From: Flavobacteriales bacterium
GTDB lineage: Bacteria; Bacteroidota; Bacteroidia; Flavobacteriales; UBA7312
Reading direction: 5' to 3'
Assembly: GCA_016779995.1 (NCBI GenBank)
Contig: JADHMO010000002.1
Span: forward strand, 124,001 to 188,000
DNA length: 64,000 nucleotides
Position 1 is the stretch's first letter, and each line of letters opens with the position of its first letter. The notes below the pieces were generated by a model. That model ran no database searches and was not told where the DNA came from. It was given only the letters and a program-made list of their open reading frames with translations. A program made the translations under genes and the position numbers. Shown piece after piece: positions 1,748 to 51,804 of the stretch.

Positions 1748-4555
1748 ATGAAACTTCAACTGATCTTATTGTTCTTTTTAGCATCAACAGTAGGTGCTTT
1801 GGCGCAAACGCGTGTGAGTGGAACCATAACTGATAATACTACCAACGACCCTTTGTTTGGAGCAACAATAGCCTACGATGGAAAAGGAATTATTAGTGAC
1901 TTTGATGGAAATTTTGCCTTTGTGACTAGTAAAGAATCTATAGAGGTGACATTTTCCTATGTAGGCTACGAAAAAGTAATAAAAAAACTAACCCTTAACG
2001 GTAAGCCCATTAAGTTAGATATCAAATTGAATACTATTCTTTTAAATGAAGTACAAGTTGTTGCAGATGTGGCTATTGATAGAAAAACACCTGTAGCTTT
2101 TTCTACTATTCCACTAAAAAAGATTAACGAAGAATTAGCTTCACAAGACATTCCAATGGTGCTAAACTCTACGCCTGGCGTTTATGCCACTCAACAAGGT
2201 GGTGGCGATGGTGATGCACGAATAACAATCAGAGGGTTTAACCAACGTAATGTAGCGGTAATGATTGATGGTATTCCCGTTAACGATATGGAAAACGGCT
2301 GGGTGTATTGGTCCAATTGGTTTGGCTTAGATGCCGTTACCAGTAATATACAAGTACAGCGAGGTCTTGGAGCATCTAAAATAGCTATTCCATCAGTTGG
2401 TGGTACTATGAACTTACTTACTAAAGGTATTGATAGCAGAAAAGGTGGAAGTTTCAAACAAGAAGTAGACTCTTATGGAAAATTAAGAACGTCTATAGGC
2501 TACAATTCAGGCAAATTGAAAAACGGCTGGGGATTCACCTTTGCAGGTTCGTATAAAAGAGGTCGTGGTTTTGTGGAAGAGACATTTAGCGAAGGCTTTT
2601 TCTATTATGCCAAAGTACAAAAGAGCTTAGGAAAGCATACACTCAGCTTGTCAGCACTTGGCGCACCTCAACAACACGGACAACGCTCCTACAAAAGTGA
2701 TATCGCAACCTATTCTAGCGAATATGCCAATGATTTAGGCATCAATGATACTTTGTTTGGAGAATATTCAGACAAAGGCATTAACTATAATAAGCATTGG
2801 GGAAACTTAAACCGATGGGAACTTAACTCCAATGGGGATACTGTTTCTAATTTAGAAACCTTAAATTCGAAGAAAAATTACTACCACAAACCTCAATTTT
2901 CTCTACGTGATTTTTGGGCAGTTAACGACAAACTATACATCTCAAATATTGCTTATGTATCAATAGGTCAAGGTGGAGGTACTAATCTAAGTAGCAACAC
3001 CAATAATCTAGACTCATTGGGGCAATACAATTTTCAAGATGCTTACGATTTCAATAGAAATAATATAAATCCATTATATAATTCAACAGAAAAAGCCTCA
3101 GACACCTATCTGTATAGTTCTAGAAATAATCATTATTGGTATGGTGCTTTATCTACTGCAAATTATCAGCTTAATAAGTTATTCACTTTATCAGGGGGTA
3201 TCGATTTACGTTATTATAAAGGTGAACATTACAGAGAAGTTTATGATTTATTAGGTGGTGACTATGCTATTGACGAAGGCAACAATTTACTTCAAGAAAG
3301 TCAAATTAAAAGAGTTGGCGATAGAGTTGGCTATCACAATGATGGTGTTGTTAAATGGTCAGGGTTATTTTCTCAGCTAGAATATAGCGATGATAAGTTA
3401 AGTGCATTTTTAAACATTTCAGGCTCAAATTCGGCAAACAAAAGAATTGACTATTTCAAAAAGAAAGACCTCGTATTAGATGACACAACCTACGTAGAGG
3501 CTTTAGGAACTTCTGTCTTTACTGAAATAGTATATGACGAAAATGGCAATATTGTTGGTGCTGTAAAAACTATGCAAGAAGATACTATTGTTCACAATGG
3601 TGTAGCATATACTATGAACTCGCCTGAGGCAAGACAGCAAGAAACATCATGGAAGTGGATAAGAGGCAAAACAATTAAGCTAGGAGCGAATTATAACATA
3701 GACTTTAATAACAACGTCTTTTTCAATATTGGTTACATTTCCAAAGCTCCTCGTTTTAATAATATTTACGATTACTCCAACAACTTGTATCGTGATATAG
3801 AAAACGAAATTGTAAAAGCTGTAGAAGGAGGATATTCTTTCCGTTCTCGATCTTTTTCTGCCAATGTCAATGGATATTTTACACAATGGGAAAATAAACC
3901 GTCTAATGGTGGGGTTACCATAATGCTTGATGATGAGCCTATTAGAGCTAACATCAATGGTATGGATGCATTACACAAAGGTATTGAAATGGATTTTGCT
4001 TATAAACTTAACGACAAAATCACACTAGAAGGGCTAATGTCCTTAGGAGATTGGACATGGCAATCTAAAGATAGTGTTCGTTTTTATGATGATAATAACA
4101 ATGCTATTATTGATGATTTTGGAAATGAAGTGGTCGAATCATTTGATGCTGTAGGAGTGCATGTAGGTGATGCTGCACAAACACAGTTTGGAATGAGCCT
4201 ACGTTATGAACCACTAGATCACATCTACTTAAAAGTTAGAGGAACATATTTTGACGATTACTACTCTGACTTCGACCCACTTTCTTTAGATGGTGAAAAT
4301 GCAGGGCGAGAATCATGGAAAATACCAGCTTACTCTTTGGTAGATTTTCATGCTGGTTACACCCTAAAATTGAATAAAAAAAGCAAAATCAACTTTCGTT
4401 TAAGTGTTCTTAACGCCCTTAACGAAGTGTATATTTCAGATGCTCAAAACAACGACTCATACAATGCAGAATACGCTGAATTTGATGCCAAGTCTGCTGG
4501 CGTATTCTTTGGAATGGGCAGAAGAATTAATTTATCAGCAAAATTGACTTTCTAA
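1748..4555 (+). CDS. TonB-dependent outer-membrane receptor with carboxypeptidase-regulatory-like N-terminal domain
   Basis: The product has 935 residues. A signal peptide ends at about residue 19 (GALAQ). A carboxypeptidase-regulatory-like beta-sandwich follows at about 22-95 (SGTITDNTTNDPLFGATIAY, then FDGNFAF and YVGYEK). The plug domain spans about 115-225 (NSTPGVYATQQGGGDGDARI, IRGFNQRNVAVMIDGIPVND, LGASKIAIPSVGGTMNL). The rest is a 22-strand-type barrel ending in the aromatic residue of SAKLTF. Uptake would be energised by TonB/ExbB/ExbD; exbB and exbD homologues lie at 51851-54023. The substrate cannot be read from sequence. The next gene starts 10 bases after its stop and encodes a secreted PLD-type nuclease, suggesting co-transcription and perhaps a nucleic-acid-derived ligand. 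No T9SS domain is present, as expected for a receptor. Confidence 0.93.
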   Translation: MKLQLILLFFLASTVGALAQTRVSGTITDNTTNDPLFGATIAYDGKGIISDFDGNFAFVTSKESIEVTFSYVGYEKVIKKLTLNGKPIKLDIKLNTILLNEVQVVADVAIDRKTPVAFSTIPLKKINEELASQDIPMVLNSTPGVYATQQGGGDGDARITIRGFNQRNVAVMIDGIPVNDMENGWVYWSNWFGLDAVTSNIQVQRGLGASKIAIPSVGGTMNLLTKGIDSRKGGSFKQEVDSYGKLRTSIGYNSGKLKNGWGFTFAGSYKRGRGFVEETFSEGFFYYAKVQKSLGKHTLSLSALGAPQQHGQRSYKSDIATYSSEYANDLGINDTLFGEYSDKGINYNKHWGNLNRWELNSNGDTVSNLETLNSKKNYYHKPQFSLRDFWAVNDKLYISNIAYVSIGQGGGTNLSSNTNNLDSLGQYNFQDAYDFNRNNINPLYNSTEKASDTYLYSSRNNHYWYGALSTANYQLNKLFTLSGGIDLRYYKGEHYREVYDLLGGDYAIDEGNNLLQESQIKRVGDRVGYHNDGVVKWSGLFSQLEYSDDKLSAFLNISGSNSANKRIDYFKKKDLVLDDTTYVEALGTSVFTEIVYDENGNIVGAVKTMQEDTIVHNGVAYTMNSPEARQQETSWKWIRGKTIKLGANYNIDFNNNVFFNIGYISKAPRFNNIYDYSNNLYRDIENEIVKAVEGGYSFRSRSFSANVNGYFTQWENKPSNGGVTIMLDDEPIRANINGMDALHKGIEMDFAYKLNDKITLEGLMSLGDWTWQSKDSVRFYDDNNNAIIDDFGNEVVESFDAVGVHVGDAAQTQFGMSLRYEPLDHIYLKVRGTYFDDYYSDFDPLSLDGENAGRESWKIPAYSLVDFHAGYTLKLNKKSKINFRLSVLNALNEVYISDAQNNDSYNAEYAEFDAKSAGVFFGMGRRINLSAKLTF

Positions 4556-4565
4556 CTTAAACATT

Positions 4566-6842
4566 ATGAAAAAAATATTCTTTTTAATTGGATGTATTGG
4601 ATTACAACTTAACCTATACTCTCAAGATATAGCAACTGCTCGAACTCAAGGTGAAGGGGCAACTGTCACTATAAGTGGTATTGTAACCAATGGTGATGAA
4701 TTGGGTAGCCCTATCCGATATATAGAAGATGCTACTGCAGCTTTAGCTATTTATGACCCTGAAGTAATGGGAGGAGTCAATAGAGGCGATAGCATTACAG
4801 TTACGGGTGTACTTGTAGATTATAACGGATTACTTGAAGTTCAGCCCGTTAATGACTTAACAAATCACGGAAGTGGATATAGCATTAACCCTCAACTCAT
4901 AACCCCAAATCAAATCGGTGAGGATACAGAATCCGAACTTGTTAGTATCGAAAATGTTGTGTTTGAAAATGCAGGACAAGTTTTTAGTGTGGGTACTCAT
5001 AATTTTTCTTCAGATGGGCAAAGCGGTATAATTTATATCAAGGCAGGAAGTAGTTTAGAAAATACGCTAATCCCATCTTGTCCAGTTAAAATGACTGCTA
5101 TTTCTTCACAATATTCGTTTACAGGATTTGATGGCTATCAATTACTCATAAGAGATGAAAATGACTTTGAATATACTGGCGAAATTTGCTTTAGTTCTGC
5201 AGTCACCCAAAGCAACATTACAACATCAAGTTTTGATGTCAATTGGAGCACTAACTTAGAAAGTTACTCTAATGTGTCTTATGGATTAACTCCCGAATTG
5301 GAATTGGGTGAAATAAACGACCCTGACAACCTAACTTCTCTTGAACACACTATTAGTTTAGAAAACTTAGAAGCTGGAACAATATATTATGTTCAAGCCT
5401 TTTCTAATACGGAAGAAGAAAATGCCTATTCAGCACTATATGCCTTTGCTACCCAATCGACTTCATCAGGAAAAATCCGACTATGCTTCAACAATTCTGT
5501 TGATACAAATGTAGCAACCATAGAAAATGCTCAAACCTCAGGGGTATATACTAATGACTCTATCAAAGCATACATTGATAAAGCTATGCACACACTAGAC
5601 ATAGCTATATATAATCATTCTGATGCTATGATTACCTCAGCCATTAACGATGCCTATGAAAGAGGCGTTAGGATAAGATACATCACCTGTGAATCTACTG
5701 CTACAATGGCATTAGGAAGTTTGAATGATAATATCCCTGTTTTAGAAAGACCTGAAGTTATGGGAATTATGCACAACAAATTTATTGTTATTGATGCTGA
5801 TGTTGCCGATAGCACTTGGGTGTTAAGCGGTTCAACTAATTGGACTTCCGAACAGATTTTTAACGACCCAAATCATATCATAATGGTTCAAGATCAATCT
5901 GTAGCAAGAACGTACGAGTTAGAATTTAATGAAATGTGGGGTAGCGATGGTGATGAGCCAGACGAAACTAACGCTAAATTTGGAAGTGATAAATCAAACA
6001 ATACGCCTCACCAATTTATTGTCAACGGCAATCAGTTTGAGGTCTATTTCTCGCCTTCCGATAATACAACCCTAAATATTTCAAACGCTCTTAAAACTGC
6101 CGATGAAGAAATTGACTTTGCTTTATTAGTATTTACAAACAATCAATTGGCCAATACAATTGTCGAAAGATACGATGATGGTGTCGAAGTTAATGGAATA
6201 ATTGAGCAAGTAAATACTCAAGGCTCAGAGTACGATGACCTATTAGATTTAGGTATCAATGTGATGTCCCATCAAGGCTTTGGGGATAGCTTTCACCACA
6301 AGTACTGTATCGTAGATCATGCCAATACAGACTCCGACCCACTAGTTATTACTGGTTCTCACAATTGGTCTGGTGCAGCAGAAACTAACAACGATGAAAA
6401 TACTATGATTATTCACGATGCAAATATTGCCAATCAGTTTTATCAAGAATTTCATCAACGAATGAACGAATTGGAAAATCAAGTGGAGCCTTCTTATAAC
6501 TGCGTTGGTGAAGCTTGTATAGACCCTATGGACGGAAGTGGTACTTATTCTTCATTGGTCGCTTGTGAATTTGTTTGTACTTCTACCTCAATTGATGAGT
6601 TAAAAACACAAAAGATACAAGTTTACCCTAATCCAAATAATGGTAGGTTTACATTACAGCTATTTGGTCAAGAATCTGTAAATATGGAGTATCAGATTAT
6701 CGATATTCAAGGCAAGACTATCGTTACAGATTATGTAACTATGACCAATGGATTGAACAAAATAGAAATAAAGAAGAGTCTGAAAGCAGGTTTATACTTT
6801 ATAGAATTTGCTAATAAGCGTATAAAATTCGTTGTACAATAA
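4566..6842 (+). CDS. Secreted phospholipase D-superfamily nuclease-like protein with OB-fold, FN3 and T9SS domains
   Basis: The 758-residue product has a signal peptide (to about residue 19). An OB-fold like that of extracellular nuclease YhcR spans about 20-120 (GEGATVTISGIVTNGDE, GDSITVTGVLVDYNG). A fibronectin type III-like domain lies at about 205-290. Two PLD catalytic halves follow, each with the HxKxxxxD motif: H403-K405-D410 (HNKFIVID) followed by SGSTNWT, and H577-K579-D584 (HHKYCIVD) followed by TGSHNWS. Both halves being intact supports an active phosphodiesterase. A Cys-rich insert (about 645-675, CVGEACIDPMDGSG) precedes the type A T9SS sorting domain (YPNPNNGRF to the end). By family it could be a nuclease or a phospholipase; the OB-fold favours nucleic acid. 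It is probably transcribed with the TonB receptor 10 bases upstream. Its stop codon abuts the convergent hydrolase gene with no gap. Confidence 0.87.
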   Translation: MKKIFFLIGCIGLQLNLYSQDIATARTQGEGATVTISGIVTNGDELGSPIRYIEDATAALAIYDPEVMGGVNRGDSITVTGVLVDYNGLLEVQPVNDLTNHGSGYSINPQLITPNQIGEDTESELVSIENVVFENAGQVFSVGTHNFSSDGQSGIIYIKAGSSLENTLIPSCPVKMTAISSQYSFTGFDGYQLLIRDENDFEYTGEICFSSAVTQSNITTSSFDVNWSTNLESYSNVSYGLTPELELGEINDPDNLTSLEHTISLENLEAGTIYYVQAFSNTEEENAYSALYAFATQSTSSGKIRLCFNNSVDTNVATIENAQTSGVYTNDSIKAYIDKAMHTLDIAIYNHSDAMITSAINDAYERGVRIRYITCESTATMALGSLNDNIPVLERPEVMGIMHNKFIVIDADVADSTWVLSGSTNWTSEQIFNDPNHIIMVQDQSVARTYELEFNEMWGSDGDEPDETNAKFGSDKSNNTPHQFIVNGNQFEVYFSPSDNTTLNISNALKTADEEIDFALLVFTNNQLANTIVERYDDGVEVNGIIEQVNTQGSEYDDLLDLGINVMSHQGFGDSFHHKYCIVDHANTDSDPLVITGSHNWSGAAETNNDENTMIIHDANIANQFYQEFHQRMNELENQVEPSYNCVGEACIDPMDGSGTYSSLVACEFVCTSTSIDELKTQKIQVYPNPNNGRFTLQLFGQESVNMEYQIIDIQGKTIVTDYVTMTNGLNKIEIKKSLKAGLYFIEFANKRIKFVVQ

Positions 6843-7616
6843 CTAGAGGCAAAAGCGAACAGTCATTTCAAAAAATTCTTGAGGTTTTTCGGCGTGAAGC
6901 CAATGCCCTACCTCATCTACTGTTTGTATTTCGGCATCTGTAAAATGCTTGAAGATTAGGTCTTCATCATCATCGTTTATGTAATTGGAATTTCCCCCTT
7001 TAATAAATAAGGTAGGTATGGAGCAGATTGCTTCATTATCCAAAGCCTCTCCAACATTAGAAATATTTTGTGAAATGGATTTTAGGTTAAATCTAAAGTC
7101 TAATTGCCCTTTTTCTTTCCAATACATACTTTTCAATAAGAATTGACGGACATCGCCCTCTTCAATGTACTCAGATAAAACGGCATCAGCCTGAGAGCGA
7201 GATTTTAGAATTGAAAAGTCGAGCATTTTTAGACCTTCAATAATTTTATCGTGATGTATGGGATAAAAACGTGGTGAGATATCAACTATGATTAACTTGG
7301 ATAAAAATTCAGGATAACTTACTGCAAATTGCATAGCCGTTTTACCGCCTAATGAATGACCTATGATAATGACATCATTCAATTGATTATCTATAATGTA
7401 TTGATGTAAGTCATTAGATAAGTGCAAATAAGAAAATTCATCTGCGTGAGGAGAACGTCCATGATTACGTTGGTCAATGAGGTGTACCTCAAAATAATCA
7501 GCAAACAGTTTAGCTAAAGATTGCCAATTATCGGACATACCGAATAGTCCATGAATAATAAGTAATGGTTGTCCCTCCCCTAAAACTCTAGAAAACAGCT
7601 TCACTTTCTCAAACAA
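6843..7616 (-). CDS. Alpha/beta-fold hydrolase (YbfF-type esterase)
   Basis: This 257-residue enzyme is a compact alpha/beta hydrolase of the YbfF/short-chain acyl esterase type. Visible motifs are the oxyanion-hole HGLFGMSDNW (residues 22-31), DQRNHGRSPH, the nucleophile elbow GHSLGG with Ser88, and the terminal histidine in DEVGHWLHAEKP. It should hydrolyse a thioester or carboxyl ester in the cytoplasm; no signal peptide is seen. The start lies inside the pdxJ 3' end (16-base overlap, 7601-7616), so the two are co-transcribed, pdxJ first. The physiological substrate is unknown. Confidence 0.9.
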   Translation of the reverse strand: MFEKVKLFSRVLGEGQPLLIIHGLFGMSDNWQSLAKLFADYFEVHLIDQRNHGRSPHADEFSYLHLSNDLHQYIIDNQLNDVIIIGHSLGGKTAMQFAVSYPEFLSKLIIVDISPRFYPIHHDKIIEGLKMLDFSILKSRSQADAVLSEYIEEGDVRQFLLKSMYWKEKGQLDFRFNLKSISQNISNVGEALDNEAICSIPTLFIKGGNSNYINDDDEDLIFKHFTDAEIQTVDEVGHWLHAEKPQEFFEMTVRFCL

Positions 7617-8317
7617 TTTTTATAACTCTCTATAGTCTTTTCCAAACCCAAATATAATGCATCTGAAATTAGAGCATGACCTATAGATACTTCGTCTAAA
7701 CAAGGAACAGAAAGAGCAAAGTAATTGAGGTTTTCTAAATTCAAATCGTGTCCAGCATTTATGCCCAATCCTAGTTCTTTTGCTAAAATAGCCGACTCTA
7801 CAAATGGCTTAACTGCTTTTACTTTGTTTATGGCAAAATGTTGAGCATAGCTTTCTGTATAAAGTTCTATTCTGTCAGTTTGAATTGCCTTAGCTCCCTC
7901 TATATACTTAGGTTCAGCTTCAACAAATAAAGATGTACGAATTCCAGCACCTTTAAAATCTGATATAATGGATTTCAAAAAAGACTGATGAGTAAGCGTA
8001 TCCCAGCCAGCATTAGAAGTTATGGCATCGGGTGCGTCGGGAACTAAGGTCACTTGATGTGGTTTTACAGACAGCACCAAATCAATGAAAGACTTTGAAG
8101 GATAACCTTCAATGTTGAATTCTGTCGTAACAATTGGGGCTATTTGACGTACATCATTATAAGTAATATGTCTTTCGTCAGGACGAGGGTGTACCGTAAT
8201 ACCGTCAGCGCCAAAGCGTTCGCAATTAATAGCAGCTTCTAAAACATTAGGCATATTGCCCCCACGTGCATTACGAATTGTTGCAATTTTATTAATGTTT
8301 ACACTTAACTTTGTCAT
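7601..8317 (-). CDS. pdxJ: Pyridoxine 5'-phosphate synthase
   Basis: PdxJ condenses 1-deoxy-D-xylulose 5-phosphate with 3-amino-2-oxopropyl phosphate in the DXP-dependent vitamin B6 pathway. The 238-residue product matches the family length of about 240. It shows VNINKIATIRNARGG at the N-terminus, the HPRPDERHI motif (His43, His50), catalytic Glu70 in TEFNIEG, GINAGHDLNLENL with His190, and the SIGHALISDALYLGL phosphate-binding end. It is a TIM-barrel cytoplasmic enzyme. It is divergent from the CBS-domain gene, and each has a TAnnTTTG box in the short gap. Confidence 0.97.
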   Translation of the reverse strand: MTKLSVNINKIATIRNARGGNMPNVLEAAINCERFGADGITVHPRPDERHITYNDVRQIAPIVTTEFNIEGYPSKSFIDLVLSVKPHQVTLVPDAPDAITSNAGWDTLTHQSFLKSIISDFKGAGIRTSLFVEAEPKYIEGAKAIQTDRIELYTESYAQHFAINKVKAVKPFVESAILAKELGLGINAGHDLNLENLNYFALSVPCLDEVSIGHALISDALYLGLEKTIESYKNCLRK

Positions 8318-8344
8318 TAATAGATGAGATTATAAATACGGGGA

Positions 8345-8352
8345 CAAAGGTA
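8345..8352 (-). promoter_or_regulatory. Putative -7 element TACCTTTG for pdxJ
   Basis: On the minus strand this reads TACCTTTG, 27 bases before the pdxJ ATG. A TTG lies 16 bases further upstream on the same strand (8369-8371), close to the 17-23 base spacing described for Bacteroidota. Confidence 0.55.
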
Positions 8353-8359
8353 AAAATAC

Positions 8360-8367
8360 TATGTTTG
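8360..8367 (+). promoter_or_regulatory. Putative -7 element TATGTTTG for the CBS-domain gene
   Basis: This matches TAnnTTTG nine bases before the ATG at 8377, implying a very short leader. It lies 7 bases from the oppositely oriented pdxJ element. Confidence 0.45.
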
Positions 8368-8376
8368 CCAAGTGTT

Positions 8377-9036
8377 ATGATTACAAGAAAACTCATATCT
8401 AAGGAAATACAAACCATCACCCTAGAATATTCTGGAGCTGAAGCGTTAGCTATTATGCAAGAATATCATCTTTCTCATATAGCTATCTTATCCAATAATG
8501 AACTTCTAGGCGTAATCTCGGAGGAAGACATCTGGGGAATGCACGATGAAAACAATAAATTAGATAGTATAAAGGATAAGATACAACAAATTTTTATGCC
8601 TTTGGGTAAAGATGTTTTTGAAGTCATTAACTATATGGACGAACATAAGCTGAGTTTGCTACCTATGTTAGCTAGTGGAAAATACATTGGCTGTATAACT
8701 TATGAATCCATTATAAGCTCTTTGGCATCAATTGTAGCTATTCAAGAAAGTGGTGGTGTTATCATCTTAGAAATGATGAAAAAAGAATACTCTATGAGTG
8801 AAATTGCTCAAATTGTAGAAAGTAACGGAGCGCGTATATTGAGTGCTTATATTACCGACGTTGACGATAGAGATGTTATTAAAATTACACTAAAACTTAA
8901 CATTATAGACATCGCTCCAGTCATTCAGACTTTCGAACGGTACAAATATACTGTAGCTGCAAGCTATAATCAGTCAGAGAGTGAAGATAATCTTGGCGAT
9001 AGATACGATTTATTAATGAGGTACCTCAACCCCTAA
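8377..9036 (+). CDS. CBS-domain protein
   Basis: The product has 219 residues from the ATG at 8377. An in-frame ATG at 8311 would extend it into the pdxJ coding region and across both promoter elements, so it was rejected. The N-terminal half is a pair of CBS motifs (ALAIMQEYHLSHIAILSNNELLGVISEEDIW, in two pieces, then VINYMDEHKLSLLPMLASGKYIGCITYESI). The C-terminal half (from about residue 120, SGGVIILEMMKKEYSMSEIAQIVESNGARILSA) resembles an ACT-like regulatory domain. CBS pairs bind adenine nucleotides, so a sensor role is plausible, but the target is unknown. It opens the envelope-gene run leading to nadK and bamA and overlaps the next gene by one base (TAATG). Confidence 0.88.
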   Translation: MITRKLISKEIQTITLEYSGAEALAIMQEYHLSHIAILSNNELLGVISEEDIWGMHDENNKLDSIKDKIQQIFMPLGKDVFEVINYMDEHKLSLLPMLASGKYIGCITYESIISSLASIVAIQESGGVIILEMMKKEYSMSEIAQIVESNGARILSAYITDVDDRDVIKITLKLNIIDIAPVIQTFERYKYTVAASYNQSESEDNLGDRYDLLMRYLNP

Positions 9037-50353: not shown

Positions 50354-50438
50354 GGAAAGGTGGCCGAGTGGCTTAAGGCGCACGCTTGGAAAGCGTGTAT
50401 ACGGAAACGTATCGGGGGTTCGAATCCCTTCCTTTCCG
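50354..50438 (+). tRNA. tRNA-Ser(GGA)
   Basis: Class II tRNA of 85 bases. Acceptor stem GGAAAGG pairs with CCTTTCC (50431-50437) and G50438 is the discriminator base, a G as in other serine tRNAs. The anticodon stem CACGC/GCGTG (50381-50385 with 50393-50397) encloses TTGGAAA, giving anticodon GGA (50388-50390), which reads UCC and UCU. A long variable arm (TATACGGAAACGTATC region) and a T-loop GTTCGAATC are present. CCA is not encoded. Its last 16 bases are repeated downstream (see the repeat entries). Confidence 0.97.
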
Positions 50439-50441
50439 CAA
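50423..50441 (+). repeat. Direct repeat, copy 1: tRNA-Ser 3' end
   Basis: The 19-base sequence AATCCCTTCCTTTCCGCAA covers the 3' side of the T-arm and acceptor stem and 3 bases beyond the gene. An identical copy lies exactly 118 bases downstream. Such duplication of a tRNA 3' end is the usual footprint of site-specific integration. Confidence 0.9.
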
Positions 50442-50479
50442 AAATAGAAATTACTCTTTTGAGTAGTTTCTATTTTTTT
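50441..50479 (+). terminator. Hairpin terminator after tRNA-Ser
   Basis: A 16-pair stem with one G-U pair (50441-50456 with 50461-50476, TTTT loop) followed by Ts, directly after the tRNA. It lies between the two direct repeats. Confidence 0.8.
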
Positions 50480-50540
50480 GTTTGGAGATGAGAACCCATG
50501 TTCGAAATGAAATTCTTGAGATTTACGAAGTAAAACGAAA

Positions 50541-50559
50541 AATCCCTTCCTTTCCGCAA
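50541..50559 (+). repeat. Direct repeat, copy 2: partial tRNA-Ser 3' end
   Basis: Identical to 50423-50441 over 19 bases but without any remaining tRNA body. The intervening 99 bases contain the terminator hairpin and no gene. It looks like one att-type site left after loss of an integrated element, or a partial tRNA duplication. Confidence 0.85.
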
Positions 50560-50564
50560 TAGAC

Positions 50565-50610: not shown

Positions 50611-50636
50611 GTGGCACGAGCAAGGATGCTCGCGCC
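50611..50636 (+). repeat. REP-like imperfect palindrome with GTGG head
   Basis: A GTGG tetranucleotide (50611-50614) leads an imperfect palindrome: GGCACGAGCA (50613-50622) pairs with TGCTCGCGCC (50627-50636) except for one A/C mismatch, with loop AGGA. A GTRG head plus mismatched palindrome is the architecture of repetitive extragenic palindromes mobilised by RAYT-type transposases. It is much more GC-rich than its surroundings. I saw no second copy in the window. Confidence 0.5.
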
Positions 50637-50641
50637 AACAA

Positions 50642-50836
50642 TTATTTAAATAACTTGTTAAAAAATTTCTGCAGTATAGGTGCAAAGAAAACAGAAGAAG
50701 CACCAATTAACGAATATATGATGAAGCTATAGTCATTACTGAGAATTATATCATCTCGGTAAGTTAGGTAATAGATAACCGAAAATAAAACCGAAATGAA
50801 AATAAAAACCGAAATATTTATGAATGTCTTTTTCAT
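50642..50836 (-). CDS. Small two-helix membrane protein
   Basis: The 64-residue product starts at the ATG at 50836 (MKKTFINISVFIF). It has two hydrophobic segments, about residues 6-25 (INISVFIFISVLFSVIYYL) and 38-56 (FIIYSLIGASSVFFAPIL), joined by a polar loop (TYRDDIILSNDYS), with a basic C-terminus (FFNKLFK). I recognise no family. It lies 2 bases downstream of the lipoprotein gene and is almost certainly co-transcribed. Small two-helix proteins next to membrane-active secreted proteins can be immunity factors, but that is inference. Confidence 0.6.
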   Translation of the reverse strand: MKKTFINISVFIFISVLFSVIYYLTYRDDIILSNDYSFIIYSLIGASSVFFAPILQKFFNKLFK

Positions 50837-50838
50837 AA

Positions 50839-51642
50839 TTACATTAATTGATAAAGTAAGGCAGAACCTGAAGCCCAAGCTGCACCAAAACCAATTGCTC
50901 CAACAATAGTCCCCCAACCTAAAGGTCCAAAACTAGCTAACGCCCAAGTTCTTAATAGAGTCCCAGCTGCTCCTGCTCCATCTGCCCAAGCTATTGCTTT
51001 CCAATTAACTTTAAATTCATCTACATCATCAAATCTTTCTATGTAATCGTCATATCTGCCCATACCTCCATTTACTTTTGGCATCCAAAATTTTAATGAT
51101 GCTCTTGATGTCTCAATAAGCACCAATAATATCTCCTTATCTTTGCCATTAATTGCATCTATTTTTGTAACAATATTATCCAATGATTTTGATTTTGCCA
51201 AATAATTATCATTATTATAAACAACTCTTTTTATTTGATTTAAAATCGTTTTAGAAGCTTGATTTGATAAATGTCGATTAATTTCTAACTCTATTTCTAA
51301 TGAGTTGTTTTTTTCAAAATACAAAAACAAATCAGTTAAAGACTTTGGTGGAATTGTTCTATTGATTGAATAAAAATTTCTTTTTAAAACATCAATAGAC
51401 GTTGGGTGATTTATAAAAGCTTTTTCTAAAAAAGTATTGTGTAAACGACCAATTAATTTAGCTTCATATAAACCTATGACCCCTTTTTTAATTCTATCTT
51501 GTCTTAATGTTGGCTCTGTTACTCTTTCGGAAACACTATTAGTTTCATAAAATTCATTTTTAGAGCAAGAGGATAAAATAAATATACTCATGGACAGAGC
51601 AAAAGTAAATTCTGTAATTCGTTTTAAGTTTAATTTTTTCAT
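50839..51642 (-). CDS. Uncharacterised lipoprotein with Gly/Ala-rich hydrophobic C-terminal tail
   Basis: The 267-residue product has a lipoprotein signal with Cys26 (SMSIFILSSCSKNE). A helical, charged middle follows (about 45-210, e.g. IGRLHNTFLEKAFINHPTSI, LEIELEINRHLSNQASKTIL). The last ~55 residues start at WKAIAWADGAGAAGTLLRTW and are dominated by Gly, Ala and Trp with GxxxG-like spacing (GTIVGAIGFGAAWASGSALL). That tail resembles the glycine-zipper region of bacteriocin-like peptides and could insert in a membrane. No enzyme motif is seen. It sits in an AT-rich accessory patch beside a tRNA integration scar. Bacteroidota contain many such lipoproteins of unknown role, so toxin activity is only a hypothesis. 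Confidence 0.72.
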   Translation of the reverse strand: MKKLNLKRITEFTFALSMSIFILSSCSKNEFYETNSVSERVTEPTLRQDRIKKGVIGLYEAKLIGRLHNTFLEKAFINHPTSIDVLKRNFYSINRTIPPKSLTDLFLYFEKNNSLEIELEINRHLSNQASKTILNQIKRVVYNNDNYLAKSKSLDNIVTKIDAINGKDKEILLVLIETSRASLKFWMPKVNGGMGRYDDYIERFDDVDEFKVNWKAIAWADGAGAAGTLLRTWALASFGPLGWGTIVGAIGFGAAWASGSALLYQLM

Positions 51643-51689
51643 GATTTTCTAATTAATAATTATTATTTCAACAAAGCTAACAGTTTAGC

Positions 51690-51710
51690 GTCTCATTTTA
51701 TGAGACTCAT
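51690..51710. repeat. Small inverted repeat between the lipoprotein and exbB
   Basis: GTCTCAT (51690-51696) pairs with ATGAGAC (51700-51706), and ATGAG-A-CTCAT (51700-51710) is a second overlapping palindrome. There is no T run, so a protein-binding site is more likely than a terminator. It lies 48 bases beyond the lipoprotein start and 95 bases before the exbB -7 element. Confidence 0.35.
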
Positions 51711-51804
51711 AAAAATTTATTCAAATTTGAATTGCTGACCTCAGGCGCAACTTGGATTGAATATTAAAAACAAAGTAGCATTTTTTTTAAACTATTAATT
51801 TGTG

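Follow-up and report, generated by a model that had tools for sequence, protein, structure and literature searches.

Lipoproteins that act as polymorphic toxins were first described in myxobacteria, where homologues of SitA/SitI of Myxococcus have been reported only in Myxococcales and only together with traAB, and the tails of SitA proteins are mostly nucleases (PMC5562445). In Bacteroidales, BcpT/BcpI and Fab1/RFab1 comprise antibacterial proteins that are derived from larger precursors, have their activity in the C-terminal part and are activated by C11 proteases (PMC9308784, PMC8406203). BcpT is a predicted surface lipoprotein and BcpI, of 57 amino acids (aa), is itself a lipoprotein (PMC9308784), while RFab1, the immunity protein of Fab1, also occurs without fab1 (PMC8406203). 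The precursors of class I lanthipeptides of Bacteroidetes carry LxLxKx5L leaders and were mined in a range of 30–120 aa (PMC7268733). Here we describe a pair of genes that encode a 267-aa predicted lipoprotein and a 64-aa membrane protein in a stretch of 64,000 nucleotides from a Flavobacteriales bacterium (contig JADHMO010000002.1, positions 124,001 to 188,000), hereafter called the window. Comparison with their relatives suggests that the two proteins are probably a polymorphic toxin directed against bacteria, together with its immunity protein.

The initial annotation of this locus reported a lipoprotein gene and a gene for a 64-residue two-helix protein 2 bases apart, and the open reading frames, the lipobox and the helices were all found. 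The lipoprotein has a signal peptidase II (SPII) signal with the lipobox LSSC and Cys26, and a helical body with an HN motif at residues 68–69 and an S..FW motif at 182–186. The small gene starts 2 bases downstream on the same strand and its product has hydrophobic helices at residues ~2–27 and ~37–56. The lipoprotein ends in a tail in which the richest 50-residue segment, starting at residue 212, contains 56% G+A+W, compared to 16% for the whole protein, so that the Gly/Ala/Trp richness originally noted in this tail was upheld. Profile searches of Pfam, NCBIfam, PHROGs, PADLOC and PDB returned only weak matches for either protein, none of them convincing, and no Pfam or NCBIfam domain was found in the lipoprotein, including a nuclease-type C-terminal domain as in SitA/SitI. 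A match of the 64-aa protein to "immunity protein TsiR" (E 0.26) was far below the cut-off and was set aside.

A wider family was then built by iterated profile searches, and a census using a 21-row profile (E ≤ 1e-6) placed it in 34 of 395 sampled genomes of the class (9%). This family has no name in the releases of Pfam and NCBIfam that were searched. It is recognized by the HN motif, by S..[FY]W and by a junction of the type D-x-x-G-A that precedes the tail; the tails on its helical body are interchangeable and fall into Gly/Ala-rich, Cys-rich and lanthipeptide-like kinds. The N-termini also vary: many members are lipoproteins, a signal peptide is missing in some, and a laminin-G-like domain is present in one; in this last member (L032 1459–3114, minus strand), the body and a Gly-rich tail stand behind that domain and are followed by a 74-aa two-helix protein. 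Loci L034 (1276–3708) and L038 (1288–2337) have a related Cys-rich C-terminus followed by a protein of 317–355 aa with an N-terminal signal-like helix, a possible tail-partner pairing. At L120 (4143–4682, minus strand), two consecutive 83-aa multi-helix proteins follow one lipoprotein and may form an immunity array. L094 and L095, from two species of one genus, have a hydrophobic tail and lie directly before a ferredoxin-type gene, possibly representing a domesticated non-toxin branch.

We observed that tails and downstream genes are exchanged together in relatives of the window lipoprotein. Genomes G942 and G783 have five tandem or multiple copies whose bodies are 97–100% identical in DNA. 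Past the body, divergence is complete: four tail types are mutually unrelated save in composition, and each is followed by its own protein with two transmembrane helices (155, 171, 93 and 109 aa). Furthermore, one tail is common to both genomes (57/58 identical), and it is followed by the same 93-aa partner in both. Likewise, in G743 (L119 2160–4651), from a second genus, two copies agree almost fully in the body but differ in their Cys-rich tails and in the three-helix proteins that follow (117 and 105 aa). The variable tails that had been predicted are therefore present on a shared body. As in polymorphic toxins, a shared N-terminal part precedes unrelated C-terminal parts in these three genomes, and the small gene directly downstream changes with the tail; in the window the gap to this gene is 2 bp, and the arrangement recurs in 3/3 intact pairs of the close subfamily. 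This exchange was seen in the relatives and not in the window copy itself. Tail swapping with partner swapping is the central evidence for the toxin-immunity interpretation.

The close subfamily consists of the window lipoprotein, L010/L016 of G510, a Chlorobiota metagenome-assembled genome that was the one further named relative found in a profile scan of genome contigs, and L053 of G1025. Its members have in common the tail 'ADG.ga.G.LLRTW..A.FGP..WG.I.GAIG.G.AW.SG', and their N-terminal bodies are much less alike. The idea that the tail is shared by otherwise unrelated lipoproteins was thus borne out in part, as the C-terminal segments of the window and G510 proteins (residues 162–267) are 53% identical and conservation is higher in the tail than in the body. 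A homologous partner of 58–64 aa is encoded within 2–15 bp 3' of all three intact lipoprotein genes. In both lipoprotein copies of G540, the frame is disrupted by stops and frameshifts, some common to the two and some private, and the 55-aa partner is intact; the copies differ at 30 of 827 aligned nucleotide positions in the lipoprotein versus 1 of 168 in the partner. G991 encodes a homologue of the partner on its own (E 4e-8), and G1025 has a second, weakly matching copy. In the window's own genome, a profile search for a second copy gave only two matches, both weak (E 0.004 and 0.018).

The locus is accessory, as had been predicted. The tRNA-Ser gene and exbB are kept at the site in 4/4 genomes of the same genus, in which ~50–56 bp replace the 1140-bp segment that holds the pair, and the lipoprotein was found in none of nine genomes of the same genus or family. 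The pair was also correctly described as alone between a tRNA scar and exbB, since its genes are the only ones between tRNA-Ser (50354–50439) and exbB, and as more AT-rich than its neighbors (GC 0.300 for the lipoprotein gene and 0.267 for the small gene, versus 0.374–0.382 for the flanks). At the identical site in G006, from another genus of the same family, we found a frame of 54 aa that matches the partner with 77% identity along 48 residues; this remnant is truncated, has no lipoprotein and has the 5' end of the partner replaced. Because this remnant is syntenic, the locus was probably present in the ancestor of the family and then lost repeatedly, and a recent insertion of the pair is weakened, with repeated loss fitting the data equally well. 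Alternatively, the locus could have arrived independently at this one site. A repeat of the tRNA-Ser 3' end (ATCCCTTCCTTTCCGCAA) lies near 50541 (window 50421–50560), and the ~99 bp between this end and its repeat are missing in the four congeners. This stretch is probably an old integration scar, separate from the segment of the pair.

Some members of the family resemble lanthipeptide precursors. In G1047 (L057 1–7172), the body runs into a lanthipeptide-like leader (KLTLNKEAIARF; a weak, sub-threshold NCBIfam match) and then into a Cys/Ser-rich core, and this precursor of ~300 aa adjoins LanC and LanB genes confirmed with Pfam. The features of a class I lanthipeptide locus (an LxLxKx5L leader, a Cys/Ser core and LanB/LanC) are thus all found at L057, save that the leader is below threshold, and they are probable at L118 of G770 (2773–9000), where a like arrangement of ~300 aa, recognized by sequence resemblance only, lies beside a Gly-rich member. 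The window lipoprotein does not have the LxLxKx5L motif, its tail is free of Cys, and modification enzymes are not encoded nearby. Because the same body bears Cys-rich or lanthipeptide-like tails, these observations suggest that it may serve membrane-acting peptides generally as a carrier or leader. More tentatively, it could be a carrier domain found throughout Bacteroidota that serves to display or export membrane-active peptides of interchangeable kinds (helical hairpins, Cys-rich peptides or lanthipeptide cores), each with a small membrane antidote; its warheads would then be bacteriocins and not enzymes, and it would bridge polymorphic toxins and ribosomally synthesized and post-translationally modified peptides (RiPPs).

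The same members raise the question of whether the anchored lipoprotein is the active form at all. The body could be a leader or carrier from which the tail is released as a bacteriocin-type peptide, processed and exported like the precursor of a RiPP or of a class II bacteriocin, so that the secreted peptide would be active. The occurrence of the body before lanthipeptide-like cores beside LanB/LanC and before Cys-rich tails, as well as the several members that have no signal peptide, would agree with such a release. However, a lipobox is present in the window protein and in its close relatives, inspection of their surroundings showed no adjoining modification gene, C39 gene or ABC-transporter gene, and no cleavage motif is evident. 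We therefore regard release of the tail as unlikely for the window pair.

To count how often a partner accompanies the lipoprotein, we defined it as a protein of 45–180 aa with at least two predicted helices, within 120 bp downstream, using simple ORF calling, and included every fetched member that had sufficient flanking DNA; the sample is small and some of its loci come from related genomes. Such a partner follows 13 of 48 family genes (~27%) versus 4 of the 157 remaining genes at these loci (Fisher P = 1.8e-6). Some partners escape the helix rule, as that of L053 was scored as having one helix. The association is real yet far from strict: the strict co-occurrence that had been anticipated holds in the close subfamily (3/3 intact pairs) and fails in the wider family. 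That most members of the wider family have no small partner would suit an ordinary envelope lipoprotein that has a hydrophobic tail and a structural or stress role, accompanied by a small membrane protein that aids its folding or localization, with no antagonism involved; the position of L094/L095 before a ferredoxin-type gene in two species likewise resembles stable housekeeping synteny. Such a role is nevertheless improbable in view of the near-identical bodies whose tail swaps are matched by partner swaps, and of the multicopy arrays, the pseudogenized copies and the patchy presence in genus and family. An intracellular addiction or abortive-infection module, in which the tail would harm the membrane of the producing cell itself if the small protein were missing, would have the same anatomy of membrane-active tail and small membrane antidote but is very improbable, as the toxin bears a secretion signal, phage and PADLOC families match only weakly and no relatives were found in the collections of phages, plasmids and viral contigs.

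The toxin-immunity interpretation, already offered in the initial annotation, is backed by the accessory locus and the variable tails, and by strict co-occurrence in the close subfamily alone. The excess of small partners after family genes, the intact partner beside decayed lipoprotein genes in G540, the orphan partners and the use of the same body before lanthipeptide-like cores also speak for it. Several observations weigh against it. By our rule, 35 of the 48 members of the wider family have no partner, and many of them precede secreted or other proteins. The array members of G942, G783 and G743, in which tail swapping is clearest, have no lipoprotein signal, so that lipid-anchored display is not a family-wide feature. 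The residues after Cys26 of the window protein (SKNEF) fit only partially the signal K-(D/E)2, which directs surface export of lipoproteins in Capnocytophaga, another member of Bacteroidetes (PMC5080379); a full fit was found in the relatives L008 (DKEEV) and L056 (QKEES) and in the G540 copies (EKEEV). Activation by a C11 protease of the fragipain/doripain type was rejected for these genomes, as PF03415 was found in 0/14 genomes, including G000, while the controls matched. Being truncated, the G006 remnant may be debris rather than an antidote that was kept. The GxxxG-like spacing first attributed to the tail did not hold, with one G...G versus a mean of 1.7 in shuffled tails (P(≥observed) 0.88), and "glycine-zipper" consequently describes the composition of the tail and no spacing signal. 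Finally, the structure predictions were weak: the full-length lipoprotein reached a predicted local distance difference test (pLDDT) score of 40 and was not taken to a fold search, and the tail was predicted as a helical hairpin (residues 214–236 and 242–266) with a pLDDT of 69, with no PDB match at E ≤ 0.001.

If the pair is a polymorphic toxin with its immunity protein, the lipoprotein would be lipidated and exposed on the producer's outer membrane. The tail, possibly cut off by a protease at the junction that precedes residue 214, would reach a neighboring cell and insert as a bacteriocin-like helical hairpin into a membrane of that cell, probably the inner membrane, and the 64-aa protein in the producer's own membrane would block the cognate tail. 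Toxicity, export route and target of the tail are thus inferred. Tails and partners would be exchanged as cassettes, and related strains would therefore differ in their killing and immunity types.

Features of the pair and its surroundings (coordinates in the window).
Feature	Coordinates	Strand	Remarks
Predicted lipoprotein gene	50839..51642	minus	267 aa; member of the unnamed family
C-terminal tail module (~residues 212–267), proposed toxic part	50839..51009	minus	predicted helical hairpin, moderate confidence
Two-helix membrane protein, proposed immunity protein	50642..50836	minus	64 aa; homologues after the L010/L016 and L053 lipoproteins, also alone elsewhere
AT-rich upstream region, missing in congeners	51643..51781	minus	candidate promoter/operator
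Terminator-like hairpin just 3' of the small gene	50612..50637	minus	sequence also in relatives without the pair
Presence/absence segment, 1140 bp	50642..51781	no strand	~50–56 bp instead in four same-genus genomes

Upstream of the lipoprotein gene, we noted a TAnnTTTG-type element at 51672–51679, recognized by eye, and, upstream of it, a perfect palindrome (GTCTCAT-ttt-ATGAGAC, 51690–51706), a candidate operator for this gene. This region is a candidate promoter.

If confirmed, a second and unrelated-looking system of lipoprotein toxins in ~9% of the sampled genomes of the class would give an ecologically dominant phylum an additional system of antagonism. A body that precedes both Gly/Ala-rich hairpins and lanthipeptide cores would also provide a new handle for mining antimicrobial peptides, whose ~300-aa precursors here fall outside the usual length window, and the swaps of tails and partners make specificity directly testable with small cassettes.

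Each of the known systems shares part of this anatomy. The G1047 and G770 members resemble class I lanthipeptide precursors (PMC7268733) in that they end in a leader-like motif with a core rich in Cys and Ser, next to LanB and LanC genes, but at ~300 aa they lie beyond the 30–120 aa range. Like the Cdz system of Caulobacter (CdzC/CdzD-CdzI; PMC5380434), the pair would combine a glycine-rich membrane-associated protein with a small (inner-)membrane immunity protein. However, contact killing has been shown for Cdz (PMC5380434) and is only proposed for the window pair, which has a lipoprotein of 267 aa, no GxxxGxxxG zipper, the spacing of its one GxxxG being not above chance, and no linked type I secretion genes, its flanks being tRNA-Ser/asparaginase and the exbB operon. 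BcpT and Fab1 come likewise from Bacteroidota and have a small protective protein encoded just downstream, and the orphan RFab1 (PMC8406203) parallels the orphan partner homologues described here. Compared by description only, those precursors are larger (499 aa, 50 kDa) and need a C11 protease that is missing here in 14/14 genomes; BcpI is a lipoprotein, whereas the partner here is a two-helix membrane protein. As for SitA/SitI, both systems have a lipoprotein signal, a conserved N-terminal part with unrelated C-terminal parts and an immunity gene, proposed as such in the present pair, directly downstream, and both are mobile and patchy with several cassettes per genome. The short Gly/Ala- or Cys-rich tails and the small membrane partners set the present family apart from the description of SitA. 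We did not file the pair under SitA/SitI, because SitA homologues have been reported only in Myxococcales, the tails here are not nuclease-like and SitA was compared by description only. On the best reading of these comparisons, it is nonetheless SitA/SitI (PMC5562445) that the pair would most resemble in the way it works.
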